From an uncultured Bacteroidota bacterium (GTDB lineage Bacteria > Bacteroidota > Bacteroidia > Bacteroidales > WCHB1-69), in assembly GCA_902786595.1 (NCBI GenBank), contig CADADB010000021.1:1-37665 (forward strand): a stretch of DNA of 37,665 nucleotides, written 5' to 3'. The notes below the pieces were generated by a model that was not told where the DNA came from, searched no databases, and saw only the letters and a list, made by a program, of their open reading frames with translations. The translations under genes and the position numbers were made by a program. Positions 3,045-30,801 of this stretch are shown piece by piece; position 1 is the first letter of the stretch, and each line of letters begins with the position of its first letter.

Positions 3045-3080
3045 TAATTATGCATTATGCATTATGAATTAAGAATTCAT
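3045..3080. repeat. Heptamer tract TAATKCA at the kamE stop
   Basis: On the minus strand the tract reads TAATTCA, TAATGCA, TAATGCA, TAATTAAG. The first TAA is the stop codon of kamE (3069-3071). The same heptamer family follows the stop of the prolyl oligopeptidase gene at 25451. Confidence 0.85.
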
Positions 3081-3857
3081 CCTCCGGTCAAGCTCCTGCG
3101 CGATGTATGAGGCCACATCGTCGGCGTAGGTGTTTGCACCGAAACCGGCATCGTAACCCAACTCCTTGGCTAACTCGTGCGTGATACGAGGTCCGCCGCA
3201 CACCACAATCAGCTTGTCGCGCAAGCCCTCGGCCTCCAACATCTCGATCAACTCGGTGAGGTTCTGGATGTGCACGTCTTTCTGCGTCACCGTCTGCGAC
3301 ACCAACAAAGCGTCGGCGTGCAGCTCCACGGCCTTGGCAATGAATTCCTCGTTCGGCACCTGACTGCCCATGTTCAACGCATCGAACATGTCGTAACGCT
3401 CAATGCCGTAGTGACCTGCATAGCCCTTCATGTTCATGATGGCGTCGATGCCCACCGTGTGCGCGTCCGTACCCGTGCTGGCACCCACCACCACGATCTT
3501 CCGTCCGATGTGTTCGCGGATGAAGTCGTCCGTCTCCGGCATCGACCACACCGTGGATTCCACCTTCGGCACGTGGATGGTCGTGTAATCCACCGTGTGC
3601 GTGCAGGCACCGTAGCAGTTTACAAACGTGAAGCCGTCTGTGAGCTCTTTGAAATAAACGACTTGAGGGTTGTCAAAACCCATCTTTTTCATCAATTGTT
3701 TTGCGGCCTCCACGGCTTCGTCACCGCAAGGCACCGGCAAGGTGAAACTCAATTGCGTCTTGCCGTCGTTCATCGTGTCGCCGTAAGGCTTCACCTTGGT
3801 TAAATCTAAGGTCTGATCAAAGTCCTTTTGATCCATTGAATATAATCCACCGCTCAT
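3069..3857 (-). CDS. kamE: Lysine 5,6-aminomutase, beta (cobalamin-binding) subunit
   Basis: 262 residues. It is the small subunit of the adenosylcobalamin- and PLP-dependent lysine 5,6-aminomutase, which moves the terminal amino group of D-lysine or L-beta-lysine to carbon 5 in anaerobic lysine fermentation. The B12-binding motif DxHxxG is D131-A-H133-T-V-G136, where H133 is the lower cobalt ligand. K144 (in NMKGYAG) is at the residue number known to form the PLP aldimine in the clostridial enzyme. A Rossmann-type B12 domain fills the C-terminal half (LIVVCGGPR, LGYDAGFG). The ATG start at 3855-3857 gives the expected length. It is last in the operon after kamD and an unknown gene. The other lysine-fermentation genes (kamA, kdd, kce, kal) are not in this window. 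The last residues and stop are shared with a heptamer repeat. Confidence 0.95.
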   Translation of the reverse strand: MSGGLYSMDQKDFDQTLDLTKVKPYGDTMNDGKTQLSFTLPVPCGDEAVEAAKQLMKKMGFDNPQVVYFKELTDGFTFVNCYGACTHTVDYTTIHVPKVESTVWSMPETDDFIREHIGRKIVVVGASTGTDAHTVGIDAIMNMKGYAGHYGIERYDMFDALNMGSQVPNEEFIAKAVELHADALLVSQTVTQKDVHIQNLTELIEMLEAEGLRDKLIVVCGGPRITHELAKELGYDAGFGANTYADDVASYIAQELDRRMNS

Positions 3858-3920
3858 AGTTTCGTTATTTTAATTGTTTGTTTTTAACTATTTGATAATT
3901 TGTATGTTTATGGGGCTGTT

Positions 3921-4062
3921 GTTAGAAGACTTGAGACTTAAGACTTGAGACTTTGGGGTTTTACGATTGTCCCTGATAATTTGTTGTTTCGTCCTTTGTT
4001 TTTTAACACATTGCTTATCGTATAATTTATCTTGTTATCTTACATCTTATCATCTCACGTCC
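3921..4062. repeat. Duplicated intergenic element, copy A
   Basis: About 140 nt, closely similar and in direct orientation to 4686-4825. It contains three TTGAGAC/TTAAGAC heptamers, a conserved core running from TTTGGGGTTTTACGATTG through CCTGATAATTTGTTGTTTCG, an AT-rich part, and the start of the ACGTC heptamer tract. The two copies flank the unknown gene 4104-4655. Copy A has two fewer heptamers than copy B. Confidence 0.85.
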
Positions 4063-4106
4063 CACGTCTTACGTCTTACGTCCAACGTCTCACGTCCTAC
4101 GTCTTA
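4057..4106. repeat. Heptamer tract ACGTCNN, seven units, at the stop of the unknown kam-operon gene
   Basis: Seven consecutive 7-nt units on the plus strand: ACGTC followed by CC, TT, TT, CA, TC, CT, TT. On the minus strand these are TAAGACG, TAGGACG, TGAGACG, TTGGACG and so on. The first TAA (4104-4106) is the stop codon of the upstream gene, and several later units supply stops in other frames. Confidence 0.9.
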
Positions 4107-4655
4107 GCTCTTCACTCCTACGAAGTAGTCCTCCTTGTCGTCGAAGAGCACGTTAAACGAGGTCATGCTGCCGTAGATCCGGGAGATGTACTGCTGGAGG
4201 TTGACTTTCTCCTCGTCGGTGAGCGAACTGCTGCTGTTGATGTTCTGTTCGAGCACACGCAGACGGTCGCGCATCATGACGATTTTGTGGAAGAAGGTCT
4301 CCACAGGAATCTCCTTGGGAGCCAGATCCTTGTTGGCGGGCTGCAGAATCATCGTGCCACCCTGCCATTTCTTGCCTAACTCGGCCTTGTATTCGATGCC
4401 GTTGTATTGGGTCAGAATCTGGGTCAGCACCTGCTTGAACTCGCGGATGTTGAGCTTCGGGGTGTCATCCTCCACATCGTTGGCCTCGACCACCTCCAAC
4501 TCTATGGCCGCCTTGGAGAACTCCAACTCGCCGCCGCGCACGAAGATGATCTTGTACGTCAACGCATTGTTCTGGCTGATGATGCCCTCACCGTACTTCT
4601 CGTGACTGACGCGGGTTCCTACCGGGAGGTTGTCTATGTCGTAGTTTGTATCCAT
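4104..4655 (-). CDS. Unknown protein encoded between kamD and kamE
   Basis: 183 residues from the ATG at 4653-4655; an in-frame TTG five codons upstream is the less likely start. I do not recognise a named family. The N-terminal ~45 residues (VGTRVSHEKYGEGII, KIIFVRGGELEF) look like the small SH3/Tudor-like barrel at the C-terminus of UvrD/PcrA helicases and in CarD-type proteins. The rest is predominantly helical and charged, with a heptad-like stretch around MRDRLRVLEQNI, and ends in YFVGVKS. There is no signal peptide, membrane segment or metal motif. Its place between the two aminomutase subunit genes suggests an accessory or regulatory role, perhaps in assembly or reactivation of the B12 enzyme; that is inference. 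It is flanked by direct copies of a ~140-bp spacer element. Confidence 0.75.
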   Translation of the reverse strand: MDTNYDIDNLPVGTRVSHEKYGEGIISQNNALTYKIIFVRGGELEFSKAAIELEVVEANDVEDDTPKLNIREFKQVLTQILTQYNGIEYKAELGKKWQGGTMILQPANKDLAPKEIPVETFFHKIVMMRDRLRVLEQNINSSSSLTDEEKVNLQQYISRIYGSMTSFNVLFDDKEDYFVGVKS

Positions 4656-4685
4656 TTCACTAATATGCAAAAATATAGGTTTTTC

Positions 4686-4825
4686 GTTAGAAGACTTGAG
4701 ACTTAAGACTTGAGACTTGAGACTTGAGACTTTGGGGGTTTTACGATTGTTCCTGATAATTTGTTGTTTCGTTCTTCGTTTTATAATTCATTTTATATCG
4801 TATATTATTTTATCATCTCACGTCC
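4686..4825. repeat. Duplicated intergenic element, copy B
   Basis: Direct repeat of 3921-4062, with five rather than three TTGAGAC-type heptamers, the same conserved core, and a shortened ACGTC tract (units TAGGACG and TGAGATG on the minus strand). The TAG of the first unit is the kamD stop codon. Confidence 0.85.
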
Positions 4826-6384
4826 TACCACCGTTCCTTCATCATCTTCACGAACGGGTTGAAGTAGTTGTCGCCTTTGGTGACCACGCCGGCGAGACCC
4901 TTGCCGCCGTCTTTCGGACGTTTCACGTCGCCGAAGATACCTTTCTCCAAAGCGGAGAAGAGACCTTCCTGGACGATCTGCTGCAACAGCTCGATGGCGT
5001 TGTTGAGGACGGTCTTGGCGCGCTCGCGGCAGATACCGCCTTCACGGAATTCCATCTCCTCACCGATGCTGCGCATATCGTTGAAGATGTAGCGGGCATT
5101 CTCGATGGAGAGGTAACGGTCGCTCATGAAGGGCGTGTGGATGGCCTCGGTGGGCATACCCAACAGCTGGATACCCTGGTGCGTCCAGATACCGATGATG
5201 TTGAAGAGCGCGTCCTGGATGTGTCCGCGGAAGATGTTGCCCGTCATGAACTTGGTCGGGGGCATGTACTTCAGCGTGGCCTTCGGGAAGATCTCGCGGG
5301 TCATCTGCGCCTGCGCGAGCTCCAACAGGAAGCCGTTTTCCAAGCCCGGATCCATCTCGAAGGCGTGACCCAAGCCCATCTGCTCCTCGGGCAAACCGGC
5401 TAACAATGCCAATTGCTCGTTGATAAGGTCTGAGGCGAGCACGGTGTGGGCGGCCTCCACGGCATCGGCGGTGGTGAGGTAGTTGTCCTCGCCAGTGTTG
5501 ATGATGACGCCGGCATAACCGTTGATGATACGGGAGAAATACTGGTCAATAAGGGTTCTCTGCGGGTTGATGTCGCGGAAAAGAATGCCGTAGAGGGCGT
5601 CGTTGAGCATCACGTCGAGACGTTCCAAAGCACCCATGGCCGCGATTTCCGGCATACAAAGTCCTGAACAGTAGTTACATAAGCGGATGTAACGGCCTTG
5701 CTCTTCGCCCACTTCGTCAAGGGCCTTACGCATGATGCGGAAGTTCTCCTGCGTGGCGAACGTGCCGCCGAAGCCCTCGGTGGTCGCGCCGTAAGGCACA
5801 TAGTCGAGCAAACTCTGACCCGTGGTGCGGATCACGGCGATGACGTCCGCGCCCTGGCGTGCACCCGCCTGCGCTTGGACGACATCCTCGTAGATGTTGC
5901 CCGTGGCGACGATAATGTAGAGGTACGGTTTCGGACCCTCGCCGATGGTGTTCAGATATTCGTTACGTTTGGCCACGTTGCCCTTGATACGGGTGAGGCA
6001 CTGTTCGATGTACGGCTGAACCGCCTTCTGGATGTCAGCCAGCGGATGCAACGGCAACGCGGTGACGTTCAGTTGGTTGTTGGTGATGCGCTCGGCAATC
6101 TCCTGCGGGTTCGCGCCTGTCTCCAAGATGGCGTTGCCCATGAAGTAAAGCACGCCCTGACTGAGCACGCCGGCCTCCAAGAGCGCATCCACGACTCGGT
6201 TGGGAAGCGGCACGCCGTTCTCATCGACTCCGTCAATGCCGATCAGTCGGCAGAGCGTGCGCTCCACCGTAACAGTCGTGTAACCATCGACAAACTCCTG
6301 AACCTGGTCCGCAATCTGCTTCGCCAACTGCTTCGCAGCAGCCACCTGGGTGAAATCCAGTCCAAGTTTTGATTTTTCTGCCAT
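4825..6384 (-). CDS. kamD: Lysine 5,6-aminomutase, alpha subunit
   Basis: 519 residues from the ATG at 6382-6384, close to the ~516 residues of the characterised clostridial subunit. This is the large TIM-barrel subunit that binds substrate and PLP phosphate and pairs with KamE. It aligns from the N-terminus (KLGLDFTQVAAAKQLA) through GEGPKPYLYIIVATGNIYED, QAGARQGADVIAVIRTTGQS, RLCNYCSGLCMPEIA and the C-terminal FGDVKRPKDGGKGLAG. The presence of separate D and E subunits argues against ornithine 4,5-aminomutase, whose OraE combines these domains in one ~730-residue chain. It is first in its operon, with a canonical promoter upstream, and is divergent from dnaK. The stop codon is the first triplet of a short heptamer tract. 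Confidence 0.95.
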   Translation of the reverse strand: MAEKSKLGLDFTQVAAAKQLAKQIADQVQEFVDGYTTVTVERTLCRLIGIDGVDENGVPLPNRVVDALLEAGVLSQGVLYFMGNAILETGANPQEIAERITNNQLNVTALPLHPLADIQKAVQPYIEQCLTRIKGNVAKRNEYLNTIGEGPKPYLYIIVATGNIYEDVVQAQAGARQGADVIAVIRTTGQSLLDYVPYGATTEGFGGTFATQENFRIMRKALDEVGEEQGRYIRLCNYCSGLCMPEIAAMGALERLDVMLNDALYGILFRDINPQRTLIDQYFSRIINGYAGVIINTGEDNYLTTADAVEAAHTVLASDLINEQLALLAGLPEEQMGLGHAFEMDPGLENGFLLELAQAQMTREIFPKATLKYMPPTKFMTGNIFRGHIQDALFNIIGIWTHQGIQLLGMPTEAIHTPFMSDRYLSIENARYIFNDMRSIGEEMEFREGGICRERAKTVLNNAIELLQQIVQEGLFSALEKGIFGDVKRPKDGGKGLAGVVTKGDNYFNPFVKMMKERW

Positions 6385-6442
6385 ATTTTTACCTTTTATA
6401 TTAATGTAATTCTTTATGTTTTATATTTAAGTCTCAAATCGG

Positions 6443-6476
6443 CAAAAATACAAAAAATACGGATATGCGGCAACAA
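6443..6476 (-). promoter_or_regulatory. Promoter of the kam operon (TTG - 20 nt - TATTTTTG)
   Basis: The minus strand carries a perfect -7 box TATTTTTG at 6443-6450. A TTGTTG at 6471-6476 lies about 20 nt upstream and fits the -33 element. The predicted transcript start is ~50 nt before the kamD ATG. Confidence 0.7.
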
Positions 6477-6486
6477 CATTGAAAAT

Positions 6487-6513
6487 GTAGAGACGCATCG
6501 CGCGCCTCTCTAC
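6487..6513. repeat. Palindromic repeat, GTAGAGACG family
   Basis: Arms GTAGAGACGC and GCGCCTCTCTAC around a short loop. One of six ~28-bp palindromes of the same general design in the window. It lies in the kamD/dnaK divergent spacer. Confidence 0.75.
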
Positions 6514-6538
6514 AACGAAACGGAATCCATACATGCCC

Positions 6539-6566
6539 GTAGGGGCGAATAATTATTCGCCCCTCT
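6539..6566. repeat. Palindromic repeat, GTAGGGGCGAAT family
   Basis: Positions 6541-6564 are a perfect 24-bp palindrome (AGGGGCGAATAA and its complement). It matches the element after dnaK at 8692-8719 almost base for base. Confidence 0.85.
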
Positions 6567-6568
6567 GC

Positions 6569-6592
6569 AGAGACGTGCCATGGCGCGTCTCT
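6569..6592. repeat. Palindromic repeat, GTAGAGACG family
   Basis: 24-bp inverted repeat, AGAGACGTGCCA against TGGCGCGTCTCT, with one mismatch pair. It directly adjoins the previous palindrome. Confidence 0.8.
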
Positions 6593-6603
6593 ACTGCCAC
6601 CCG

Positions 6604-6648
6604 AATGCCAAAATGTCAGTGGTTTTCTCCTTGAGAATCACTGGCATT
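6604..6648. promoter_or_regulatory. Imperfect inverted repeat immediately upstream of the dnaK promoter
   Basis: Three paired segments: AATGCC/GGCATT, AGTG/CACT and TTCTC/GAGAA around a CTT loop, separated by small bulges. It ends 6 nt before the sigma-54 -24 element. It could be a binding site for an activator or repressor. It also resembles a terminator (T run after it), but the upstream gene points the other way, so there is nothing obvious to terminate. Confidence 0.45.
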
Positions 6649-6654
6649 ATTTTT

Positions 6655-6670
6655 TGGCACAATTGTTGCT
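6655..6670 (+). promoter_or_regulatory. Sigma-54 (RpoN) type -24/-12 promoter of dnaK
   Basis: TGGCAC, five bases, TTGCT: an exact match to the sigma-54 consensus TGGCAC-N5-TTGCW, with the required GG and GC ten bases apart. The predicted start is ~12 nt downstream, giving a ~60-nt leader to the dnaK ATG at 6742. No TAnnTTTG vegetative box is visible in the leader. The match and spacing are seen in the sequence; use in vivo is inference. Confidence 0.7.
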
Positions 6671-6741
6671 AAGGAATGTCGCGTCCCGAAAAAAGGACAG
6701 TGTAAAATCAACGAATTAGTAACAATAAAAATTATAAAACA

Positions 6742-8676
6742 ATGGGTAAAATAATCGGAATAGACTTAGGAACAACCAATTCATGTGTTGCGGTGATGGA
6801 AGGCAGCGAGCCTGTCGTCATCCCCAACAGCGAAGGCAGAAGAACAACGCCTTCTATCGTGGCATTCGTGGGCGACAACGAGCGTAAGGTCGGTGACCCC
6901 GCCAAACGTCAGGCCATCACGAACCCCACCAAAACCATCTTCTCCATCAAGAGATTCATGGGCGAGACGTACGACCGCGTGACCAGCGAGGTGAGCCGCG
7001 TGCCCTACATCGTGGAACGCTCCTCCAACAACATGCCGAAAGTGAAGATCGACGACCGTTCTTACACGGCACAGGAGATCTCCGCCATGATTCTGCAAAA
7101 GATGAAGAAAACGGCTGAGGATTACCTCGGCCAGGAAGTGACGGAAGCCGTCATCACGGTGCCCGCCTACTTCAGCGACTCCCAACGTCAGGCCACCAAG
7201 GAGGCCGGTGAGATTGCGGGTCTGAACGTGAAACGTATCATCAACGAGCCCACCGCAGCCGCTTTGGCTTACGGTTTGGACAAGAAGAAAGCCGACTCCA
7301 AAGTGGCCGTGTTCGACCTCGGTGGCGGTACCTTCGATATCTCCATCCTCGAGTTGGGTGACGGCGTCTTCGAAGTGAAATCCACCAACGGCGACACGCA
7401 CCTCGGTGGCGACGACTTCGACCACAAGATCATCGACTGGCTGGCCAGCGAGTTCATGAAAGACTACAACGTGGATCTGCGTAAGGATGCCATGGCTTTG
7501 CAGCGTCTGAAAGAGGCGGCAGAGAAGGCCAAGATCGAGCTCTCCAGCTCCAACTCCACGGAAATCAACCTGCCGTACATCATGCCGATCGACGGTGTTC
7601 CGCAACACTTGGTGCGCACATTAACCCGTGCCCAGTTCGAGCAACTCTGCGACGACCTGATTCGCAAGACCATCGAACCGTGTAAAAAAGCTTTGGCCGA
7701 TGCCGGCTACAAGACCTCTGATATTGACGAGGTCATCCTCGTGGGTGGCTCTACCCGTATCCCCGCCATCCAGAAGGTGGTGGAAGACTTCTTCGGCAAG
7801 GTGCCTTCCAAAGGCGTGAACCCCGACGAAGTGGTGGCTATCGGTGCCTGCATCCAAGGCGGTGTGTTGAGCGGCGATGTAAAAGACATTCTGTTGCTTG
7901 ATGTTACCCCGCTGTCACTCGGTTTGGAGACCCTCGGCGGCGTGATGACCAAACTCATCGATGCCAACACGACCATCCCGACCAAGAAGTCGCAGGTGTT
8001 CACCACCGCGGCCGATAACCAGACCTCCGTGGAGATCCACGTGCTGCAAGGCGAGCGTCCCATGGCGGCTCAGAACAAGAGCATTGGTCGTTTCCACTTG
8101 GACGGCATTCCGGCGGCTATGCGTGGCATCCCGCAAATCGAGGTCACCTTCGACATCGACTCCAACGGTATCCTGAACGTGACGGCTCATGACAAGGCCT
8201 CCGGCAAGGAGCAGAAGATCCGTATCGAAGCATCCTCCGGTTTGAGCGACGATGAAATCAAGCGCATGAAAGCCGAGGCCGAGGCCAACGCTGACGCCGA
8301 CAAGAAGGCCAAGGAGGAAATCGACAAGCTGAACAACGCTGACTCGTTGGTGTTCAACACCGAGAAGCAGCTCAAGGAGTTCGGCGACAAGATTCCCGCC
8401 GACGACAAGGCCAAGATCGAAGCTGCGGCTGCGAAACTGAAGACCGCGCACGACAACAAGGATTTCAGCGGCATTGATACTGCCATGGCTGAGCTGCAAT
8501 CCGCTTGGAACGAGGCCTCACAGAAGATGTACGCTCAAGGCGGCGGCGCGCAACAGCAACCCGGCGCTGACTTCAACGGCGGCTTCAACCAACAGGCCGG
8601 TCCGCAAGGCCCGCAGGGCGGCAACGGCGGCAACGACCAAGAGGTGCAAGATGTTGACTTTGAAGAGGTTAAGTAA
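6742..8676 (+). CDS. dnaK: Chaperone DnaK (Hsp70)
   Basis: 644 residues, a full-length Hsp70 that refolds client proteins in the cytoplasm in an ATP cycle with DnaJ and GrpE (neither encoded in this window). The nucleotide-binding domain shows [13 protein letters not shown] at the N-terminus, the second phosphate motif [11 protein letters not shown] near residue 195, and the adenosine motif [11 protein letters not shown] near residue 335. The linker ([13 protein letters not shown]) leads into the substrate-binding domain, and the C-terminal lid ends in a G/Q/N-rich tail closing with DVDFEEVK, the usual EEVx end. It appears monocistronic: a sigma-54 type promoter precedes it and a strong terminator follows. 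Confidence 0.99.
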
Positions 8677-8691
8677 CGATATTGTTTGTCG

Positions 8692-8719: not shown

Positions 8720-8730
8720 ACAAACCCCCA

Positions 8731-8772: not shown

Positions 8773-8805
8773 AAACAATGTCATCCAAGGTGTATGTATT
8801 TTGAC

Positions 8806-8858: not shown

Positions 8859-9470
8859 ATGGATAAAAAAGGATTGTTGATTCCTGTAGTGGAGGAATTT
8901 TACTCGTTGCAAGGAGAAGGTTACCATACGGGTAAGGCGGCTTATTTCGTGCGCGTGGGCGGTTGCGAGGTGGGTTGCTCTTTCTGTGACGAGATGCGGG
9001 CGTGGAATGCTGAAAAGTACCCGAAGGTGGCGGTAGATGACATTGTAGAACGAGCGGCACAGAAGCCCTCAAGGGCAGTGGTCGTCACCGGCGGCGAACC
9101 CATGCTCTATAATATGGATTATCTCTGCAAAAGGATGCACGAACACGGAATCAAGTGCTTCTTGGAAACTTCTGGCTCCGAACCGCTCAGTGGCGACTGG
9201 GACTGGATTTGTCTCTCCCCGAAATACGGAGCGAGTCCAAAAGCGGAGTTTCTCTCCCGCGCTGATGAACTCAAAGTGGTCATCGGCAGCGAGGAGGATT
9301 TCGCGTGGGCAGAGGAAAACGCCAAAAAAGTCTCCAAAAACTGCCTTCTTTTCCTCCAACCCGACTGGAACCGCTGCAACGCCATCATCGGCCGCCTCGT
9401 GAACTACGTCCTCGAACACCCCAAATGGCGCGTCTCCCTGCAAACCCATAAGTATATGCAAATACTTTAA
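8859..9470 (+). CDS. queE: 7-carboxy-7-deazaguanine synthase (radical SAM)
   Basis: 203 residues. QueE converts 6-carboxytetrahydropterin to 7-carboxy-7-deazaguanine, a step toward queuosine and other deazaguanines. The radical SAM cluster motif is C36-x3-C40-x2-C43 (GGCEVGCSFCD), and the SAM-binding TGGEPM lies at residues 77-82. The N-terminal EEFYSLQGEGYHTGK is the substrate-loop signature of the family, and the C-terminus (VSLQTHKYMQIL) also matches. No other queuosine gene lies nearby. Its TAA stop is the first triplet of a TAACC-type repeat tract that fills the gap to the DUF721 gene. Confidence 0.95.
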   Translation: MDKKGLLIPVVEEFYSLQGEGYHTGKAAYFVRVGGCEVGCSFCDEMRAWNAEKYPKVAVDDIVERAAQKPSRAVVVTGGEPMLYNMDYLCKRMHEHGIKCFLETSGSEPLSGDWDWICLSPKYGASPKAEFLSRADELKVVIGSEEDFAWAEENAKKVSKNCLLFLQPDWNRCNAIIGRLVNYVLEHPKWRVSLQTHKYMQIL

Positions 9471-9538
9471 CCTTCTAACCCTCTAACCTATAAACTATAA
9501 CCCAGCTTCAATAACCCATAACCTATAACCCATAACCA
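9468..9538. repeat. TAACCYA heptamer/octamer tract after queE
   Basis: Units TAACCTTC, TAACCCTC, TAACC, TATAAAC, TATAACC, then CAGCTTCAA and TAACCCA, TAACCTA, TAACCCA, TAACC. The first TAA is the queE stop codon. The segment with AGCTTCAA plus TAACC units recurs, inverted, at 19287-19320 and 23231-23265. Confidence 0.85.
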
Positions 9539-9545
9539 TTACCAA

Positions 9546-15408: not shown

Positions 15409-16290
15409 ATGATAAAACGAGTAGCCACAACCTTATTATCTCTCGCCTTCGCGCTCTGCCTCCACGCGCAGCGCGACTCCTTAGCGTTCGTGAACGGCAA
15501 CTGGAGAATCGACACCTTGGACGGAATGATGCTGAAACAGTGCCGGTTCGATGGACAGCAGCTGTTCGCCTCGAATCAGCAGATCTTTGTGCTGGAGATT
15601 CCTGATACAGTGCGCTATAAGTTGGCGTTCGCGCACGAGCCGCGCCGCACGAAGACCTCCGAAATGGCACGTAAGCATGGTGCAGTGGCGGCAGTGAATG
15701 GCTCCTTCTTCGATATGGACAAACATTTTCCGGTCTGCTACCTGCGTATCGACAGCGTGGAACTTGGGGAGAACACCCCCGGCAAGGACACCGTGAACCG
15801 CAAATACTACCAATACGGCACGCTTTGTCTTAACCACGACAGCGTTCTCATTCTCAAAACCGGTTCTTCGAGACATTGGGAGGAGGGTTTACCTTATCCG
15901 GATATTATGACTGCCGGTCCGCTGTTGATTTGGCACGACACGTTGCAGTACATGCGCGATGACCGTACTTTCGTCACAAATCGTCATAACCGCACGGCCG
16001 TGGGCATCCGCGAGGATGGCACGGTATTGCTGTTCGTGGCGGACGGTAGGGCGAAAGAAGCTGAAGGATTGTCACTTACGGAGTTGCAACAATTGTTGCG
16101 TTGGCTTGGTTGCCGTGATGCCCTCAACCTTGATGGTGGTGGCTCCACCACGATATGGCTGGATTTCAATGACTTCCAAGGTGTTGTCAACTGTCCTTCC
16201 GACAACGGCCGCTTCGATCATGAAGGCGAACGCGGCGTGTCGAACGCAGTGCTGATAATTAAGAATGCAGAATTAAGAATGCAGAATTAA
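15409..16290 (+). CDS. Secreted phosphodiester glycosidase family (NAGPA-like) protein
   Basis: 293 residues with a signal peptide ending in CLHAQ (residues 1-20). The core matches the NAGPA/phosphodiester glycosidase domain (PF09992): KHGAVAAVNGSFFDMD, PDIMTAGPLLI, NRTAVGIREDGTVLLFVADGR, LLRWLGCRDALNLDGGGSTTIW and a closing RGVSNAVLII. Family members cleave GlcNAc-phosphodiester or related bonds on exported glycans; the substrate here is unknown. The last nine residues (KNAELRMQN) are encoded by a 14-nt tandem repeat that the frame enters and leaves at the third unit's TAA. The ancestral protein probably ended near VLII. Confidence 0.88.
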   Translation: MIKRVATTLLSLAFALCLHAQRDSLAFVNGNWRIDTLDGMMLKQCRFDGQQLFASNQQIFVLEIPDTVRYKLAFAHEPRRTKTSEMARKHGAVAAVNGSFFDMDKHFPVCYLRIDSVELGENTPGKDTVNRKYYQYGTLCLNHDSVLILKTGSSRHWEEGLPYPDIMTAGPLLIWHDTLQYMRDDRTFVTNRHNRTAVGIREDGTVLLFVADGRAKEAEGLSLTELQQLLRWLGCRDALNLDGGGSTTIWLDFNDFQGVVNCPSDNGRFDHEGERGVSNAVLIIKNAELRMQN

Positions 16291-16298
16291 GAATGTCG
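16257..16298. repeat. 14-nt tandem repeat (AATTAAGAATGCAG) at the end of the glycosidase gene
   Basis: Three units: two identical, the third ending TCG. Each unit is two heptamers (AATTAAG and AATGCAG). The reading frame meets TAA out of frame in units one and two and in frame in unit three, where translation ends. Confidence 0.9.
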
Positions 16299-16309: not shown

Positions 16310-16351
16310 TAGCCAATAGCTAATAGCCAAAAGCTAAAAGCAAAAAACAAA
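16310..16351. repeat. TAGCYAA heptamer tract
   Basis: Six consecutive heptamers: TAGCCAA, TAGCTAA, TAGCCAA, AAGCTAA, AAGCAAA, AAACAAA. They decay toward A-rich sequence downstream. Confidence 0.85.
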
Positions 16352-16372
16352 ATCAACGTGCAATGTCAAATT

Positions 16373-16696: not shown

Positions 16697-16724
16697 GTAG
16701 AGACGTTTCATGAAACGTCTCTAC
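16697..16724. repeat. 28-bp perfect palindrome, GTAGAGACG family, between convergent genes
   Basis: GTAGAGACGTTTCA and its exact complement. Read from the recQ side, the TAG in its arm is the recQ stop codon (16721-16723). It may act as a bidirectional terminator. Confidence 0.9.
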
Positions 16725-18601: not shown

Positions 18602-18607
18602 CTTCCA

Positions 18608-18656
18608 GTTTCAGGTTTCAAGTTGTAGGTCTTACGTCTCAAGTCTTACGTCTATC
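18608..18656. repeat. Seven-unit heptamer tract (GTYTYAV) at the BFN gene stop
   Basis: Units GTTTCAG, GTTTCAA, GTTGTAG, GTCTTAC, GTCTCAA, GTCTTAC, GTCTATC. On the minus strand the tract overlaps the last codons and TGA stop of the BFN gene and fills the gap to recQ. Confidence 0.85.
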
Positions 18657-19277: not shown

Positions 19278-19282
19278 TTTTT

Positions 19283-19474
19283 GAATGGTTATAGGTTATG
19301 GGTTATGGGTTATTGAAGCTGGTGTATTGGTGAATAGTGATTAGTGAATAGTGATTGGTGAACAGTGAGTGAACAGATGGTATCGTATTTTATCTCATCC
19401 TTTCATCGCTTTTCATAGCTTCGTCGTTTCATCGTTTCATCGTCTCATCGCCTCATCGTCTCATCGCCTTTTAT
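19283..19474. repeat. Spacer made of three tandem-repeat tracts between purL and the BFN gene
   Basis: 19287-19320: GGTTATR heptamers ending TTATTGAAGCT. 19330-19364: five heptamers GTGAATA, GTGATTA, GTGAATA, GTGATTG, GTGAACA. 19421-19474: octamers TCATCGTT, TCATCGTC, TCATCGCC, which read GATGARRC on the purL strand, so each carries TGA. No gene is present. Confidence 0.85.
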
Positions 19475-23220: not shown

Positions 23221-23230
23221 CAATTTTTAA

Positions 23231-23265
23231 TGGTTATTGGTTATAGGTTATGGGTTATTGAAGCT
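23231..23265. repeat. GGTTATR heptamer tract in the purL/peptidase divergent spacer
   Basis: GGTTATT, GGTTATA, GGTTATG, GGTTATT, then GAAGCT. It shares an identical 27-nt segment with 9504-9537 (inverted) and differs from 19287-19320 by one heptamer. Confidence 0.85.
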
Positions 23266-23287
23266 ACTCACCGCTCACTAAAAAAAC

Positions 23288-23295
23288 TATCTTTG
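23288..23295 (+). promoter_or_regulatory. -7 promoter box of the prolyl oligopeptidase gene
   Basis: TATCTTTG, 28 nt before the ATG at 23324. Confidence 0.6.
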
Positions 23296-23323
23296 CACTT
23301 TCGAAATCATTAAAATCATATCA

Positions 23324-25453
23324 ATGAAAAAACTAACTATCAGTATTTTAGCATTAAGCACCATCATTATGCTTGCAGCTTGTCATAAGAAAAACAACCA
23401 GATTCCTAAGGTGGAATATCCCGAAACCAAGAAATGCGACACCGTGGATCATTATTTTGGTGTGGCCGTTCCTGACCCCTACCGCTGGCTGGAGGATGAC
23501 TATTCCGAGGAGACCGCCGCGTGGGTGAAGGCGCAGAACGAGGTGACTAACAAGTTCTTGGCGCAGATTCCCTATCGTGAGAAGATGAAGAAACATCTGT
23601 TGGATATCATGAATTACCCGAAGGAGGGTGCGCCGTGGAAAAAGGGCGACCGCTACTTCTTCTACCGCAACGATGGTCTGCAGAACCAGAGCGTGCTCTA
23701 CTACAAGAATTCCCTTGACGGTAAAGCCATTGAGCTGCTCGATCCCAACAAACTCTCCAATGACGGCACCGTGGCGCTCTCCACGCTCGACATCTCCGAT
23801 GACGGCAAGTATCTCGGTTACGCCATCTCCCGTAACGGCAGTGATTGGCAGGAAATTTACGTCAAGGACATTGCGACGGGCAAGGATTTGGACGACCATC
23901 TCGTGTGGGTGAAGTTCTCCGGCATCGCTTGGAAGGATGACGGCTTCTTCTACAGCCGCTTCCCGGAGCCCAAGAACGAACTCTCCGGGGTAAACGAGAA
24001 TGGCAAACTCTACTACCACAAAGTCGGCACCGACCAAAAAGAGGATAAATTAGCTTACGAAGATCGCACCAACCCGAACCTTAGCTTTAGCGCAGAGGTT
24101 GTCAACAAACGCTATCTGGTGATTTACGGTAGCGAATCCACATCGGGCAATTCGCTGTATTACAAAGATTTGAATGATCCGAAAGCACAGTTTATCAAGG
24201 CGGTGACCGACTTTACGGATGACTACAGCGTGATAGACGAGATTGACGGCCATTTCCTCGTGATGACCAACCACAACGCGCCCGAATACCAGGTCATTAG
24301 CATCCCGATTGGCAGTCTGACGACGATGGGATGGACCGATGTCATTCCCGCCACCAAGGGCGAAGTCCTCGCAGGTGTGAGCCATATCGGTAAAAGGTTG
24401 ATTGCCAACTATACCAAGGACGCCCATTCCGTGGTGAAGATTTTCGATGAGGGCGGCAAGTTCCTCGCCAATCTCGACAATGACCAGATCGGTTCCATTG
24501 GCGGTTTCAGCGGCGAGGCCGACGACACCGAGACCTTCTACACGGTCACCTCATACGTGACGCCCGCGACCATCTACCGCTACGATGTCTCGAACAACAA
24601 ATCGACGCTGTACAAGAAATCCGAAATCAAGTTCAACTCCGACGAATATGTGACGGAGCAGAAATTCTATACCTCCAAGGACGGCACAAAGATTCCGATG
24701 TTCATCACTCACAAGAAAGGCATCAAGTTGGACGGAAGCAACCCGACGCTACTCTACGGTTACGGCGGTTTCAACATCTCGCTCACGCCAAGTTTCAGCG
24801 CGACCCGTTTGGCCTGGCTGGAGCAGGGCGGTGTGTATGCTGTGGCCAACCTTCGCGGCGGTGGCGAGTATGGCAAGGAGTGGCACGAGGCCGGTACGAA
24901 GCTGAAGAAGCAGAACGTTTTCGACGACTGTATTGCTGCGGCTGAGTTCCTGATTGCACAGGGCTACACCAGCAAGGAAAAGCTTGCGGTGATGGGCGGT
25001 TCCAACGGCGGTCTGCTCGTGGGTGCGGTCGTGAACCAGCGTCCCGACCTCTTCGCCGTGGCCATCCCGGAAGTGGGTGTCATGGACATGCTGCGCTACC
25101 ACAAGTTCACCATTGGCCGCTACTGGGCCGTGGATTACGGCACCAGCGAGGACAGCAAGGAGATGTTCGAGTACCTCTACAAATACTCGCCACTGCATTC
25201 CATCCAGAACGGCAAGGAGTACCCTGCCATCTTGGTGACCACCGCCGATCACGACGACCGTGTGGTGCCCGCGCATTCGTTCAAGTACGCCGCGACTCTG
25301 CAAAACAGCGACATCGGGGACAAGCCGCACCTTATCCGCATTGAGAGCAACGCGGGTCACGGTGCCGGCAAACCCCTTGACAAGGCCGTCGATGAAATTG
25401 TGGATATCTACTCGTTCATGTTCTTTAACATGGGAGTGGAGCCGAAGTACTAA
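23324..25453 (+). CDS. Prolyl oligopeptidase (S9A), lipoprotein
   Basis: 709 residues. The signal MKKLTISILALSTIIM leads to a lipobox ending in C20 (LAACHKK), so it is probably a periplasmic or outer-membrane lipoprotein. An N-terminal segment (YFGVAVPDPYRWLEDDYSEET) and a seven-bladed propeller precede the alpha/beta hydrolase domain. The catalytic triad is S560 (MGGSNGGLL), D645 (DHDDRVVP) and H679 (NAGHGAGKP), almost the numbering of the mammalian enzyme. It cleaves proline-containing peptides of limited length, consistent with the amino-acid-fermenting lifestyle implied by kamDE. It is monocistronic. Its TAA stop opens a TAATTCA heptamer tract. Confidence 0.96.
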   Translation: MKKLTISILALSTIIMLAACHKKNNQIPKVEYPETKKCDTVDHYFGVAVPDPYRWLEDDYSEETAAWVKAQNEVTNKFLAQIPYREKMKKHLLDIMNYPKEGAPWKKGDRYFFYRNDGLQNQSVLYYKNSLDGKAIELLDPNKLSNDGTVALSTLDISDDGKYLGYAISRNGSDWQEIYVKDIATGKDLDDHLVWVKFSGIAWKDDGFFYSRFPEPKNELSGVNENGKLYYHKVGTDQKEDKLAYEDRTNPNLSFSAEVVNKRYLVIYGSESTSGNSLYYKDLNDPKAQFIKAVTDFTDDYSVIDEIDGHFLVMTNHNAPEYQVISIPIGSLTTMGWTDVIPATKGEVLAGVSHIGKRLIANYTKDAHSVVKIFDEGGKFLANLDNDQIGSIGGFSGEADDTETFYTVTSYVTPATIYRYDVSNNKSTLYKKSEIKFNSDEYVTEQKFYTSKDGTKIPMFITHKKGIKLDGSNPTLLYGYGGFNISLTPSFSATRLAWLEQGGVYAVANLRGGGEYGKEWHEAGTKLKKQNVFDDCIAAAEFLIAQGYTSKEKLAVMGGSNGGLLVGAVVNQRPDLFAVAIPEVGVMDMLRYHKFTIGRYWAVDYGTSEDSKEMFEYLYKYSPLHSIQNGKEYPAILVTTADHDDRVVPAHSFKYAATLQNSDIGDKPHLIRIESNAGHGAGKPLDKAVDEIVDIYSFMFFNMGVEPKY

Positions 25454-25478
25454 TTCATAATTCATAATGCATAATGAA
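25451..25478. repeat. TAATKCA heptamer tract at the peptidase stop
   Basis: TAATTCA, TAATTCA, TAATGCA, TAATGAA in direct succession. The first TAA is the stop codon. Confidence 0.9.
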
Positions 25479-25527
25479 GAATGACGTGAGATGTAGGACA
25501 TTTGGTTGAGAAGCGGACAAAAGAATG

Positions 25528-25555
25528 GTAGAGGCGTGCTGAGGCGCGTCTCTAC
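25528..25555. repeat. 28-bp palindrome, GTAGAGACG family, between convergent genes
   Basis: Arms GTAGAGGCGTGC and GCGCGTCTCTAC with two imperfect pairs. As at recQ, the TAG in its arm on the minus strand is the stop codon of the adjacent gene (25552-25554). Confidence 0.8.
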
Positions 25556-26673: not shown

Positions 26674-27239
26674 TCTTTGTCAAGGAATTCACGGATGGTT
26701 TGGAGCATCTCCTCCCGAGCGTCGTCAAGATTGTCGTTGAGGATGATTTTGTCGAATTGCGGGGCGAAGGAGAGCTCGTACTCGGCTTTCTCCACGCGTT
26801 TGCGCAAGGACTCTTCGGTTTCGGTGCCGCGTTTGCGAAGCCGGTTCTCTAATTCCTGTACCGTAGGGGGTTCCACAAAGATGGCTAACGCCTTGTCGCC
26901 GAAGTACTTCTTAATGTTCAGTCCGCCCTTCACATCCACGTCGAAAATCACGACCTTGCCTTCATCCCATATACGCTGGATTTCGCTCTTGAGAGTGCCG
27001 TAGAATTGGTTGGCATAGACCTCTTCCCATTCCAAAAACGCATCGTGGCGAATGCCTTTCTTAAAGTCATCGACCGAAAGGAAATGGTAGTCTTTGCCGT
27101 TGATTTCCCCTTCGCGCTTTGCGCGGGTGGTGGCAGAGGTGGAAAACCGAAGTTCGGGAAGAAACTGTAGCACATGCTTGACGATGGAGGTCTTTCCGGC
27201 TCCCGACGGCGCGGATACAATGATTACTTTGCCATTCAT
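26670..27239 (-). CDS. gmk: Guanylate kinase
   Basis: 189 residues from the ATG at 27237-27239 (MNGKVIIVSAPSGAGKTS); a longer upstream reading would run through the promoter. It phosphorylates GMP to GDP with ATP. The P-loop is residues 9-17 (SAPSGAGKT). The GMP-binding region has STSATTRAKREGEINGKDYHFLS, and the lid has NRLRKRGTETEESLRKRV. The length is standard. It is first of a two-gene unit with the YhiN-type flavoprotein. Confidence 0.97.
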   Translation of the reverse strand: MNGKVIIVSAPSGAGKTSIVKHVLQFLPELRFSTSATTRAKREGEINGKDYHFLSVDDFKKGIRHDAFLEWEEVYANQFYGTLKSEIQRIWDEGKVVIFDVDVKGGLNIKKYFGDKALAIFVEPPTVQELENRLRKRGTETEESLRKRVEKAEYELSFAPQFDKIILNDNLDDAREEMLQTIREFLDKE

Positions 27240-27258
27240 ATCAGGTTGTTTTAGGCGG

Positions 27259-27266
27259 CAAAGGTA
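27259..27266 (-). promoter_or_regulatory. -7 promoter box of gmk
   Basis: TACCTTTG on the minus strand, 19 nt before the gmk ATG. Confidence 0.55.
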
Positions 27267-27324
27267 CAAAAAAATCAAAAATGCACGTCGGGAGACTCAG
27301 GAACATTTCATAATGCAAAAAATG

Positions 27325-27332
27325 TATTTTTG
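27325..27332 (+). promoter_or_regulatory. -7 promoter box of the short-chain dehydrogenase gene
   Basis: TATTTTTG preceded by an A-tract; 44 nt before the ATG. The 17-nt context equals that of the promoter at 2785-2801 on the other strand. Confidence 0.6.
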
Positions 27333-27376
27333 TAATTGAAATCCTATTGAATTTATCACAGTTTAATATATTGATT

Positions 27377-28132
27377 ATGAATAAGATTGTAATGGTAACT
27401 GGTGCTACGAGCGGTATTGGGCTCGGATGTGCACGGAAATTCGCCGAGAATGGCGACAAACTGATTCTGACCGGACGCAATGAGCAGAAACTGGAAGAAA
27501 TCCGCAAGGAACTGACAGACAAGGGCACACAGGTGTTGACATTGGTGTTCGATGTCCGGGATCGCGAGAAAGCCACGCAGTGCATCAACGCACTTCCCGA
27601 GGAATGGAAAGACATCGATGTGTTGGTGAACAATGCCGGCTTGGCGCTTGGACTGGAACCTGAATATGAAGGCAGTTTCGAGGATTGGGAGACGATGATC
27701 GATACCAACATCAAGGGTTTACTGACGATGACCCGACTTATCGTGCCGGGGATGGTACAGCGCGACCGGGGGCACATCATCAACATCGGTTCGGTGGCCG
27801 GTGATGCCGCGTACGCCAACGGCAATGTCTATTGCGCCACCAAGTCGGCCGTGAAAACCATCACGGACGGATTGCGCATAGATGTGGCAAGCAGTGCCGT
27901 CAGGGTGACGAACCTCAAACCAGGACTTGTGGAGACTAATTTCAGTAACACCCGTTTCCATGGCGACACGGAACGTGCGGCCAACGTATATAAGGGCATC
28001 AAACCGCTTACCGGCGACGACATTGCGGACGTAGCTGTATATGCTGCTAACGCGCCCGCCCACGTGCAAATCGCCGAGGTACTGATCCTCGCCACTCATC
28101 AAGGCAGCGGTAGCGTTATTGTAAGAAAATAG
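27377..28132 (+). CDS. Short-chain dehydrogenase/reductase (YdfG-like)
   Basis: 251 residues from the ATG at 27377; an upstream TTG is ignored because it would add residues before the canonical MNKIVMVTGATSGIG. The cofactor motif TGATSGIG spans residues 8-15, NNAG 85-88, and the catalytic S139, Y152 and K156 are all present (YCATK). R34 after the second strand (LTGRN) suggests NADP. The closing EVLILATHQGSGSVIVRK resembles the NADP-dependent 3-hydroxy acid (serine/allo-threonine) dehydrogenases YdfG. The exact substrate is uncertain. Confidence 0.92.
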   Translation: MNKIVMVTGATSGIGLGCARKFAENGDKLILTGRNEQKLEEIRKELTDKGTQVLTLVFDVRDREKATQCINALPEEWKDIDVLVNNAGLALGLEPEYEGSFEDWETMIDTNIKGLLTMTRLIVPGMVQRDRGHIINIGSVAGDAAYANGNVYCATKSAVKTITDGLRIDVASSAVRVTNLKPGLVETNFSNTRFHGDTERAANVYKGIKPLTGDDIADVAVYAANAPAHVQIAEVLILATHQGSGSVIVRK

Positions 28133-28168
28133 AAGCAGCTGAAATCGCTTATTGTAGGACTGTTAGAT

Positions 28169-28187
28169 GGATCGAAACTGCCGATCC
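28169..28187. terminator. Possible terminator between convergent dehydrogenase and helicase genes
   Basis: 6-bp stem GGATCG / CGATCC with a 7-nt loop followed by TTTCATT. Weak but suitably placed. Confidence 0.4.
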
Positions 28188-28206
28188 TTTCATTCGGGCT
28201 CGGAAC

Positions 28207-30699
28207 TCAGTCCCGATTCATCCCTGCTTGTACCATGCGTAGTTCCCAAAACTCGAAGTCGTCACCTAAAACCTCTTTGGCTTTGCCTAACGACGGATCT
28301 TCGGTGTCGCGGAAATACTCTTCAATGATGTCGCATTTCTCCTTGTCAATAAAGTCAACTGCGTCATACTCACCATGTTCCACGAATCGGGCGATGTGCC
28401 CGTAAATGGTGGATAATGCGAGGTTCCGCTCGGAGGCAATTTCCTCTGCGGTCATACCTTTGTCCAACATCCGCTTGGTAATCAAGTATGTTTCCCCTTT
28501 CGGCTTCTTTGACTTTACGGGCTTGTCGTTCAGGATGTCCATTTCAGTAGCTTCGTTTTCAAGCATTTCCATGTCTGAATAGACTCTTACAATATTGACA
28601 ATGTCCCGGCCGAATGCTTTGATTCGTTTAGGTCCCATACCTTCAATTTGCTTGAGTTCGGCGATGGTAGTCGGTTTTTCCTTCGAGATGGCTTTTAGGG
28701 TTTTGCTTGGAATGATGCTATAGAGCTCGGTGTCCTCGTCGGCTGCCATGTCAGCTCGCCATTCGTTCAAGGCAGAGTACAAGCTGCTCTTGCTCATCAC
28801 TCCTGCTTTGATTGAATGAATGGATTTCGGGCCTTTTTCAGCTTCCAACATCTTGATTGCCTTTGTGTTATAATATTCATCCACACTAAACCCCTCATTA
28901 CAGATGCTTAAGCATCCGGTTTTTACAAGGGCTTCTTCTTTTAATAACCCTGTGAACTCTGTAATCTGCTCATTTACAGTCTTATTGTCGGTTTTGTAGG
29001 GCAGTTTGAGTAGCTGGTCAGTCAGATTCTTCAAATGCTCTGTGAAGTAGGTTGCACCCTTTTGCAGCCGCTCCTGTAGCTGCGGGTTGGCCTCATATAA
29101 CGCCGTGCTGTGCAACTTGCGGATCTGTTTCCCGAAAGTGTTTCCTACATCTACCAATTCGGATTTAACACAGTCGCGTAGGCGGACAAGTTCCGATACA
29201 ACCTCCTTCTCAAATAAAGATATGTTGGATGTGACCACTTTGGCAAGTTTTCCCGTATTGCCATAAAAATTCTGGAAATCTATTAATTCCAAGAGTGTCT
29301 TCAGCTCATAATCAGAACGAAGTCCATCGACTTTCTCTATTGATGGCTCTTTTTCGGGCATCTGCTCCACAAAGTAGTCCACGATGCCATCGTTGATGAG
29401 CGCCTGGGGGCTGATTCGGGTTTTCAGAACGAGACCTTCAAGGGAAGTGCAGCGGCTGAGTGCCACATAGACTTGTCCATGGGCGAAAGCTTGCTGTGCA
29501 TCTACAATCAGTTTGTCAAAGGTGAGACCTTGACTTTTGTGGATAGTCACAGCCCATGCAAGCCGTAATGGAATTTGTGCGAAACTACCGATTTCGACCT
29601 CTTCGATTTGTTGGTTCTCTTCGTTAAGGGAGTAATCGAAGTTCTGCCATACGACTGGCGATACATGAATGCGTTCCTCGCCGCAGGTTACTTCCAATTC
29701 ATCATTATCTTTGTCATAGTCGGTCAACCGGCCGATTTTCCCGTTGTAGTATGCTTTTTCGGGATTAGGGTCGTTCTTTACAAACATCACCTGTGCCCCG
29801 ATTCTCAGTTCAAGTTCCTCTTTGGTGGGGTAAAGTTGTTGCGGGAATGTGCCTTTAATGGTTGCCTTGAAATGGAGACTGTCACTTTTGATTGAACGCA
29901 GTCGCGTTTCATTGATCTCATCAGCTTGTGCATTGTGAGTGGTGAGTGTGATATACCCTTCTATAGGTTTGAAATTCGGAATATAACGACTATTCAGTAG
30001 GCGAATGCACTCATCATCCATTTGGTTGTCGCGTACTTTGTTGAGAAGAGTGATAAAATTGGTGTCATGCTGTCGATAAATATGGTCTAGTTCAACACAT
30101 TGATAATCGGTGCGTTGCAATACATGGCTACCGAAAAAGTAGGTGGTTTTATAATAGGGTGCGAGAACTTCCCACTCTTCAGGTTTGGCTACGGGAGCGA
30201 GCTGGTGAACGTCACCGATCATGAGAACTTGTACGCCGCCAAAGGGCTCAGACGAGTGGCGTGTGCGGCGCAGCACGGCATCTACAGCATCCAATACATC
30301 TGCGCGCACCATGCTGATTTCATCGATGATAAGTAGATTCAGCGTGCGCATGATTTTCAATTTTGTGCCCCGGATTTTTTGGAAATGGGCGGCCTGCTCT
30401 TTTTTGCTTTGTTGTAGCGGGGCGCTTGCCCCTTCGGGCAACTGCGGCCCGAAAGGCAGCTGGAAGAACGAATGGATCGTTTGCCCTCCAGCGTTGATCG
30501 CTGCCACGCCTGTCGGTGCCACCACCACCATCCGCTTGTGCGTTTTCGAGGGCAGACTTTTCAGGAATGTGGTCTTTCCCGTGCCCGCTCTGCCGGTTAA
30601 GAAGATGTGCGCGTTCGTGTGAAGCACAAGTTCTTCAACAAACTGAAGTTTCTGATTTACAAATGGTTGATTTTCTTTTAATGTCTTTTCACTGGTCAT
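28207..30699 (-). CDS. PIF1-type SF1 helicase with HRDC and HTH_40 tail
   Basis: 830 residues. The N-terminal helicase has Walker A G36-RAGTGK42-TT, Walker B LLIIDEISMV, the GDVHQLAPV motif, and the UvrD-C_2 motif WAVTIHKSQGLTFDKLIVD with GQVYVALSRCTSLEG. Residues ~450-630 are a mostly helical region. An HRDC domain follows (LYSALNEWRADMA, TIAELKQIEGMGPKRIKAFG), and a C-terminal HTH_40 domain (TYLITKRMLDKGMTAEEIASERNLALSTIYGHI). PIF1 helicases are 5'-3' and act on G-quadruplexes and stalled forks. The HRDC-HTH_40 tail is otherwise typical of RecQ proteins, and the RecQ in this window lacks it. Transcribed from its own promoter. Confidence 0.93.
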   Translation of the reverse strand: MTSEKTLKENQPFVNQKLQFVEELVLHTNAHIFLTGRAGTGKTTFLKSLPSKTHKRMVVVAPTGVAAINAGGQTIHSFFQLPFGPQLPEGASAPLQQSKKEQAAHFQKIRGTKLKIMRTLNLLIIDEISMVRADVLDAVDAVLRRTRHSSEPFGGVQVLMIGDVHQLAPVAKPEEWEVLAPYYKTTYFFGSHVLQRTDYQCVELDHIYRQHDTNFITLLNKVRDNQMDDECIRLLNSRYIPNFKPIEGYITLTTHNAQADEINETRLRSIKSDSLHFKATIKGTFPQQLYPTKEELELRIGAQVMFVKNDPNPEKAYYNGKIGRLTDYDKDNDELEVTCGEERIHVSPVVWQNFDYSLNEENQQIEEVEIGSFAQIPLRLAWAVTIHKSQGLTFDKLIVDAQQAFAHGQVYVALSRCTSLEGLVLKTRISPQALINDGIVDYFVEQMPEKEPSIEKVDGLRSDYELKTLLELIDFQNFYGNTGKLAKVVTSNISLFEKEVVSELVRLRDCVKSELVDVGNTFGKQIRKLHSTALYEANPQLQERLQKGATYFTEHLKNLTDQLLKLPYKTDNKTVNEQITEFTGLLKEEALVKTGCLSICNEGFSVDEYYNTKAIKMLEAEKGPKSIHSIKAGVMSKSSLYSALNEWRADMAADEDTELYSIIPSKTLKAISKEKPTTIAELKQIEGMGPKRIKAFGRDIVNIVRVYSDMEMLENEATEMDILNDKPVKSKKPKGETYLITKRMLDKGMTAEEIASERNLALSTIYGHIARFVEHGEYDAVDFIDKEKCDIIEEYFRDTEDPSLGKAKEVLGDDFEFWELRMVQAGMNRD

Positions 30700-30734
30700 A
30701 TTATTAAATTTTTTGTTTTAAAGTTATTAATGCG

Positions 30735-30742
30735 CAAATATA
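30735..30742 (-). promoter_or_regulatory. -7 promoter box of the PIF1-type helicase gene
   Basis: TATATTTG on the minus strand, 35 nt before the ATG. Confidence 0.55.
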
Positions 30743-30754
30743 TGTTTTTTTGTT

Positions 30755-30801
30755 TTACGATTTACGATTTTCGCAAACCGTAAATCGTAAATCGTAAATC
30801 G
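30755..30801. repeat. Inverted heptamer tracts TTACGAT and TAAATCG
   Basis: Two TTACGAT units, a spacer, then three TAAATCG units. The two arrays are inverted relative to each other and can form a hairpin, immediately after the ribosomal operon terminator. Confidence 0.85.

Follow-up and report, generated by a model that had tools for sequence, protein, structure and literature searches.

Outwardly polarized heptamer arrays recur at gene borders in the genome of an uncultured gut Bacteroidales bacterium

Why do tandem arrays of 7-nt units stand at so many gene ends of one bacterium, and is the supply of stop codons the point of these arrays? The question was raised by a DNA stretch of 37,665 nt (the window), contig C21 of a 2.84-Mb, 40-contig metagenome assembly that represents an uncultured gut Bacteroidales bacterium. 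A sequence-only reading of the window had described intergenic heptamer arrays, many of them unrelated in sequence, which begin at stop codons and could act as translational fail-safes. In total, 838 of the 2840 kb of the genome (29%) were analysed with Tandem Repeats Finder and a separate self-match scan. Genes were called with a purpose-built dicodon caller, in which stops are firm and starts uncertain. The closest named relatives were Bacteroidales metagenome genomes, many of them ruminant-derived (loci L009-L040, 77-98% identity for the protein encoded at 23324-25453). Matches to Pfam and NCBIfam agreed with the gene names given earlier wherever a family was matched (lysine 5,6-aminomutase alpha and beta, a radical SAM protein at the queE position, phosphodiester glycosidase, BFN domain, phosphoribosylformylglycinamidine synthase and an oligopeptidase B-like protein); the gene at 4104-4655 matched no Pfam or NCBIfam family.

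All 14 arrays located earlier in the window, which flank genes such as purL and kamE, were recovered by Tandem Repeats Finder and the self-match scan (Table 1). Eight genes had been named as ending in or at an array. This held for seven of them and failed for kamD (4825-6384), where just two or so degenerate units, called as an array by neither scan, come after the TAG. The statement that the arrays begin at stop codons was too strong, as seven of the 14 do not (those at 3927, 4692, 16310, 19287, 19326, 23227 and 30754).

Table 1. Repeat arrays and elements of the window and their relation to neighbouring genes
Array position	Extent	Strand	Unit or element	Relation to genes	Detected by
3046	3046..3077	-	TAATKSA array	TAA of the unit is the stop of the lysine 5,6-aminomutase beta (kamE) gene	both scans
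3927	3927..3953		AGACTTG array	mid-spacer	both scans
4038-4106	4038..4106	-	GACGTNN array	directly at the TAA stop of gene 4104-4655	both scans
4692	4692..4732		AGACTTG array	gene 4104-4655 has its predicted start 36 nt downstream	both scans
9468-9544	9468..9544	+	TAACCYTC/TAACCYA array	holds the stop (TAA 9468-9470) of the radical SAM gene (queE of the sequence-only reading)	
	9505-9540	-	GGTTATN element	part of the 9468..9544 array	
16257 (14 nt)	16257..16295	+	AATTAAGAATGCAG double-heptamer array	stop of the phosphodiester glycosidase gene inside	both scans
16310	16310..16352	+	TAGCYAA array (TTRGCTN family on the opposite strand)	19 nt past the stop	both scans
18603-18653	18603..18653	-	GACKTRA-type array	contains the TGA stop of the BFN-domain gene	Tandem Repeats Finder
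19287	19284..19319	+	AATGGTTATNGGTTATNGGTTATNGGTTATTGAAGC element	at the start of the BFN-domain gene, pointing outward	
19326	19326..19368	+	GTGAWTA array		both scans
19395-19466	19395..19466	-	RRCGATGA octamer array	starts beside the purL stop	both scans
23227	23229..23264	+	GGTTATN element	upstream of purL	
25451	25451..25484	+	TAATKSA array	TAA of the first unit is the stop of the oligopeptidase B-like gene	
30754-30805	30754..30805		inverted pair TTTACGA ... TCGTAAA	mid-spacer	both scans

The excess of heptamers that had been noticed in the window extended well past it. Among 224 intergenic arrays in the 838 kb, 189 had a period of 7, 14, 21 or 28 and 17 a period of 8 or 16; in coding sequences, the period was a multiple of 7 in 15 of 36 arrays. 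A shuffle control was run on the first 437.7 kb only, where 84 intergenic period-7 arrays were observed against a mean of 0.2 in five dinucleotide shuffles of the spacers. This portion also held arrays of period 14, 21 and 28 and a few of period 8 or 16, and no intergenic period other than those of the 7 and 8 series occurred in more than three arrays. This confirmed that the intergenic heptamer arrays are real.

The units are not simply unrelated to each other, as many of them had appeared to be: they come from a restricted set of families, which turn up again and again. With strand and rotation ignored, 46 classes were distinguished among 102 arrays from the first half; a few of these classes recurred often, and TAACTGA was not among the units of the 102 arrays. 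In the families, some positions are fixed and others free; examples are GGTTATN, TTTRCGR, GACKTNN, TAATKSA, TTRGCTN and the octamer RRCGATGA. The GGTTATN element was present in 35 copies at up to 5 mismatches in the 838 kb, with the consensus AATGGTTATNGGTTATNGGTTATNGGTTATTGAAG. Its unit cores were nearly invariant, and its three free positions were occupied by G in 50, T in 31 and A in 24 of 105 cases and never by C. It has the edges AAT...TTGA(AG), the last two letters being variable. Moreover, 34 of 40 GGTTATN runs of at least three units had exactly four units, whereas most other families form arrays of 3 to as many as 11 units. Because the same families recur and the GGTTATN element is usually four units long, pure slippage is insufficient to explain the arrays.

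For 206 arrays belonging to the 7 or 8 series, placement was compared with random positions in the same spacers. Arrays with their midpoint within a called gene, or not flanked by called genes on both sides, were excluded from this and from the following counts of polarity and stop codons. As had been expected from the window, array ends were concentrated at stops: random placement predicted 46.7 ends in the interval from -60 to +3 nt around a stop, and 86 were observed. Array ends lying 0-10 nt upstream of a start were also enriched (40 observed, 17.1 expected), and arrays overlapping a start codon were depleted (6 observed, 32.4 expected). Repeats set gene ends in this genome: 60 of 693 genes with a stop in the 838 kb ended inside an array, and 86 of 693 ended inside an array or at most 3 nt from one. 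The coincidence with stops noticed in the window is nevertheless largely forced, because an array that overlaps a gene end must contain its stop. The frequent abutting of arrays on stops is the part that is not forced.

If stop-bearing units were selected as fail-safes or 3'-UTR elements that halt read-through in all frames, an excess of stops would be expected in the sense strand. All three frames were indeed closed in 69 of 115 arrays on the sense strand against 42 of 115 on the antisense strand (arrays within 20 nt of a stop, overlaps included). Stop density was 0.147 in sense and 0.052 in antisense in the 58 arrays overlapping a stop, but the 46 arrays beginning 0-20 nt past a stop showed no such excess (0.084 and 0.089, respectively), and many arrays sit at starts. 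That the arrays exist to supply stops is not supported: the sense excess is limited to arrays overlapping the gene end, and starts are crowded as well. Because the excess is confined to overlapping arrays, a dedicated fail-safe was rejected as the main cause, and we regard it as unlikely. Start codons were rarer in the sense strand of start-proximal arrays (density 0.022, against 0.089 in antisense). Gene borders free of arrays showed no such bias in start or stop codons and no polarity of GC skew.

The palindrome GTAGAGACG...CGTCTCTAC, another dispersed repeat, was observed in the window (16697-16724) and in stretches of its own genome. In 8 of its 41 copies in the 838 kb, positions 2-4 of the element form the TAG stop of a gene, and one copy provides the TAG stop of both convergent genes.

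Polarity proved to be a stronger rule than coincidence with stops. The same strand of a family points outward from the nearest gene end, at starts and stops alike, and the outward strand is G-rich. As the orientations of six families were named on the first half (437.7 kb), the count was split: within 20 nt of a gene end, 69 arrays pointed outward and 1 inward in the naming half and 48 outward and 5 inward in the held-out half (117 and 6 in both). Farther from gene ends, the ratios were 18:13 and 10:8, respectively. Since the outward bias is mostly gone at this distance, polarity is tied to the border. At stops, the mean GC skew of the outward strand was +0.41 in overlapping arrays and +0.62 in arrays 0-3 nt after the stop, of which 22 of 25 were G-rich outward and only 40% continued into the stop codon. 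It was +0.14 (not significant) at 4-20 nt and -0.15 at 21-60 nt. At starts, it was +0.64 at 0-3 nt, +0.75 at 4-20 nt and still +0.46 at 21-60 nt, where 25 of 27 arrays kept the polarity; the four arrays overlapping a start had a GC skew of -0.63.

G-rich strands pointing outward bring to mind G-quadruplexes. The four-unit GGTTATN element has four GG tracts, and parts of PMC4692102 describe the same polarity for heptamers discussed as quadruplexes. However, of the 150 arrays located at most 20 nt from a gene end, only 3 contained four GGG or CCC tracts, and the 90 that lack four GG or CC tracts still pointed outward by GC skew in a ratio of 75:13. Because arrays without G tracts keep the polarity, quadruplexes fail as a general cause, which we consider extremely improbable. 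The polarity might also be explained by loading of Rho, if the C-rich strand were transcribed into genes and the arrays ended untranslated or antisense transcription. At starts and at abutted stops, the strand read by transcripts entering genes would be rich in C and poor in G. Cyanobacteria are not known to possess Rho. Heptamers of the cyanobacterium Nostoc nevertheless have the same polarity according to parts of PMC4692102, and a role of Rho appears highly improbable.

Arrays of one family pointing outward from both ends of a spacer form inverted pairs (X...rc(X)), which may fold into hairpins or terminators. Such same-family pairs occurred 7 times against 1.4 expected, with a maximum of 6 in 2000 shuffles, and long stems were predicted in some spacers; the window itself holds the pair at 30754-30805. 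Spacers with arrays did not differ consistently from swapped spacers in inverted repeats (7.2% against 5.8% at score 14, 1.8% against 4.9% at score 18). Hairpins were dropped as a general cause because there was no overall excess of inverted repeats, just a subset of paired spacers, and we hold this explanation to be very unlikely.

We give about an even chance to the reading that these are dispersed repeats, similar to the short tandemly repeated repetitive (STRR) heptamers, which spread in this lineage and pass a selective sieve at gene borders. A restricted number of unit families (7 nt, in a few cases 8 nt) would arise and spread in the lineage, at least one of them as a complete element whose ends are defined; thereafter, copy number would often shift by whole units. 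Arrays would accumulate at gene borders, where they would have to pass the sieve. At 3' ends, an array overlapping a gene would survive only if its sense strand supplied a stop, and a stop-bearing 7-nt unit would close every frame within 21 nt. At 5' ends, an array would survive when its sense strand was poor in G and in start codons. Such a sieve would yield both the outward G-rich polarity and the coincidences with stops, and the arrays would need no function. Period, recurrence of families, polarity, stop overlap and turnover at orthologous sites are observed; spread by slippage plus copying or recombination, with the sieve as the cause of polarity, is what we infer. The fading of stop-side polarity with distance is as the sieve predicts, but the strong polarity 0-3 nt past stops is explained by a stop sieve only in part. 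Three further findings speak against this reading, namely the reach of the start-side polarity, a 25-nt length difference between orthologous spacers and the failure to find a spreading enzyme.

Turnover was visible at orthologous sites. At the stop of the 23324-25453 gene, TAATKSA units were present in the window, L009 and L018. TTRGCTN units occupied this site in L012 and L013 and also rewrote the last codons (EPKY to EVSY in L012). A four-unit GGTTATN element was present in L014 alone among the window and 32 relatives. In 27 of the 32 relatives no array was found by eye in the stretch inspected, counting among them L015 and L017, which hold a degenerate remnant. The spacer at 19278-19470 is 193 nt long and largely filled with repeats in the window, and the aligned coding sequences end 5 nt apart in L011. 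L018 carries about three GCCAATA-like units at the site of the inverted pair 30754-30805 and GCCTATT units at the site of the 18603-18653 array. In the spacer before the oligopeptidase B-like gene, the GGTTATN element (23229..23264) is shortened in L009 and L018, with about 900 nt inserted beside it. By eye, this insert may hold a small toxin-antitoxin-like gene pair. Block alignments, which cover the spacers at 23223-23324 and 25453-25552 in part, gave, for example, a length difference of 16 nt in L009 (octamer) and one of 21 nt in L018 (heptamer); a further difference in L009, of 25 nt, does not correspond to whole units.

Occurrence in other genomes was assessed with patterns that hold all but the named free positions fixed and therefore cannot prove that only those positions vary. 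The three-unit GGTTATN form had 62 matches without mismatch in its own genome and was present in 18 of 39 other genomes of the same genus, and it was absent at zero mismatch from 20 genomes of other genera of the family and from 40 genomes of other families. Three TTRGCTN units in a row were found in 34 of 40 genus genomes (own genome included), with 0 to 336 matches each. Among 296 Bacteroidota including this one, the pattern occurred in 20 genomes and 17 of 140 genera (424 matches, 231 of them in the own genome), against 11 genomes and 26 matches (2 in the own genome) for the reversed control. Match numbers of GGTTATN and TTRGCTN in the 40 genus genomes were correlated (Spearman 0.58, uncorrected for relatedness), which suggests a shared cause.

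Polarity was also found outside the genus. In 40 stretches chosen for TTRGCTN matches (six genomes of other families, three of them also of other classes), arrays between called genes pointed outward in 43 cases and inward in 6. Of the 31 arrays no farther than 20 nt from a gene end, 27 pointed outward and 4 inward, and 29 were at stops. Polarity was weakest in G391 (only 6:4 at stops within 20 nt), and many arrays of G110 and G115 ended in TTAGGTA, a lineage-specific edge. By eye, TTRGCTN arrays at both ends of a spacer faced each other in three other Bacteroidota loci (L199, L202 and L195), an arrangement known from the Xanthomonas heptamers. A locus of lower GC from another genus of the family (L170) showed a different repertoire of heptamers (AAGGCGG, AAAGTCG and CGGATTT).

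Fixed edges would be expected if the families were mobile elements of REP or MITE type, moved in trans by a transposase for which the heptamers served as recognition arrays. The edges of the GGTTATN element, the frequent TTAGGTA end in other classes, the restriction of the three-unit form to the genus and the presence of the element at an orthologous stop in L014 alone are consistent with this explanation. Most families vary in unit number, however, and no target duplication was established. The single neighbourhood of a Y1 transposase gene that was inspected has GC-rich palindromes, not heptamers. We therefore consider mobile elements of this type possible but doubtful. By eye, many GC-rich palindromes with AGCTCGGTAG flank this gene (C1:270036-270500, within C1:269400-271600), an arrangement that we take to be typical of REP/RAYT pairs.

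Candidate enzymes for spread were searched for in the 40 genus genomes. Addition at break ends with Ku-type joining was rejected because Ku was matched in none of them, and reverse transcriptase because RVT_1 was matched in only 9 and in none of the repeat-rich genomes G020, G026 and G036. A Y1 transposase was present in 36 and correlated only weakly with repeat number (Spearman 0.38 with TTRGCTN and 0.37 with GGTTATN, p about 0.02 in both cases, neither corrected nor adjusted for relatedness). None of the three explains the heptamer load.

Period-7 arrays were also scanned for in cyanobacterial loci (L076, L078 and L087). The 7 series made up 10 of 14 intergenic arrays in the Moorena locus L087 and 5 of 5 in the Saprospiraceae locus L049. 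Many of the Bacteroidota loci scanned held no 7-series array, and other periods equalled or exceeded the 7 series in L030, L057 and stretches of G036 (a 14-kb sample of G036 held no 7-series array and five others). It is conceivable, though improbable, that Bacteroidota, cyanobacteria and xanthomonads share one writing process, by which about four 7-nt units are added outward, G-rich strand first. Its units would come from a few families in which variable positions are built in, and the polarity would resemble telomere addition beginning at gene borders. Writing would begin, or be tolerated, at stops and starts, and some families would form quadruplexes as a by-product. The range of 0 to 336 TTRGCTN matches over the 40 genus genomes makes a writing or spreading process mappable by comparison.

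STRR heptamers of cyanobacteria are dispersed families of tandem 7-mers between genes. The likeness to them that had been suggested for the window was borne out by the dispersed families of tandem heptamers in the spacers of this genome; STRR belong to another lineage.

Mrazek et al. (2007), as reported in parts of PMC4679880 and PMC4692102, found heptanucleotide repeats to be the most abundant in most prokaryote genomes and proposed slippage. Such an excess alone leaves the recurring families, the defined ends and the polarity unexplained. The tandem repeats of Borgs were dropped as a parallel because their units are longer and perfect, according to parts of PMC9879509. Phase-variable contingency repeats are tied to surface or antigen genes, whose expression they switch; the genes beside the window arrays include purL and kamE.

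The sequence-only reading knew of no description in this group, but for one unit there is one. Parts of MacGregor (2015; PMC4679880) describe TAACTGA direct repeats in Beggiatoaceae, cyanobacteria and five Bacteroidetes, which face start codons and are accompanied by other heptamers in a few Bacteroidetes. As far as these parts go, both systems consist of intergenic heptamers placed by starts in a fixed orientation, with a stop-bearing sense strand and a patchy distribution, and in both some Bacteroidetes spacers hold several heptamer families. They differ in the unit, and the array ends described here are favoured at stops as much as at starts. In the literature searched, mostly outside subscription journals, no description of many-family polarity without quadruplexes was recognised.

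The closest known system is that of the G-rich heptamers of Xanthomonas and Nostoc. Parts of Rehm et al. (2015; PMC4692102) describe GGGAATC and GGGGA(T/C)T units, discussed as quadruplexes, whose G-rich strand points outward from the nearest ORF whatever the direction of the ORF. These repeats are intergenic, prefer four units, overlap stop codons and form convergent pairs in Xanthomonas. As in the parts of that description, the arrays analysed here consist of intergenic 7-nt units with free positions, occur genome-wide, overlap stops, form convergent pairs and expose a G-rich strand outward. Four units are the usual length of the GGTTATN element; arrays of the other families have 3-11. Unlike those heptamers, as far as they are described there, many families here are AT-rich and most arrays lack G tracts capable of forming quadruplexes; an octamer series and different families at one orthologous site are further differences. 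This genus offers a dense example with many families, whose polarity follows the rule of that system although most arrays fall outside its quadruplex explanation.
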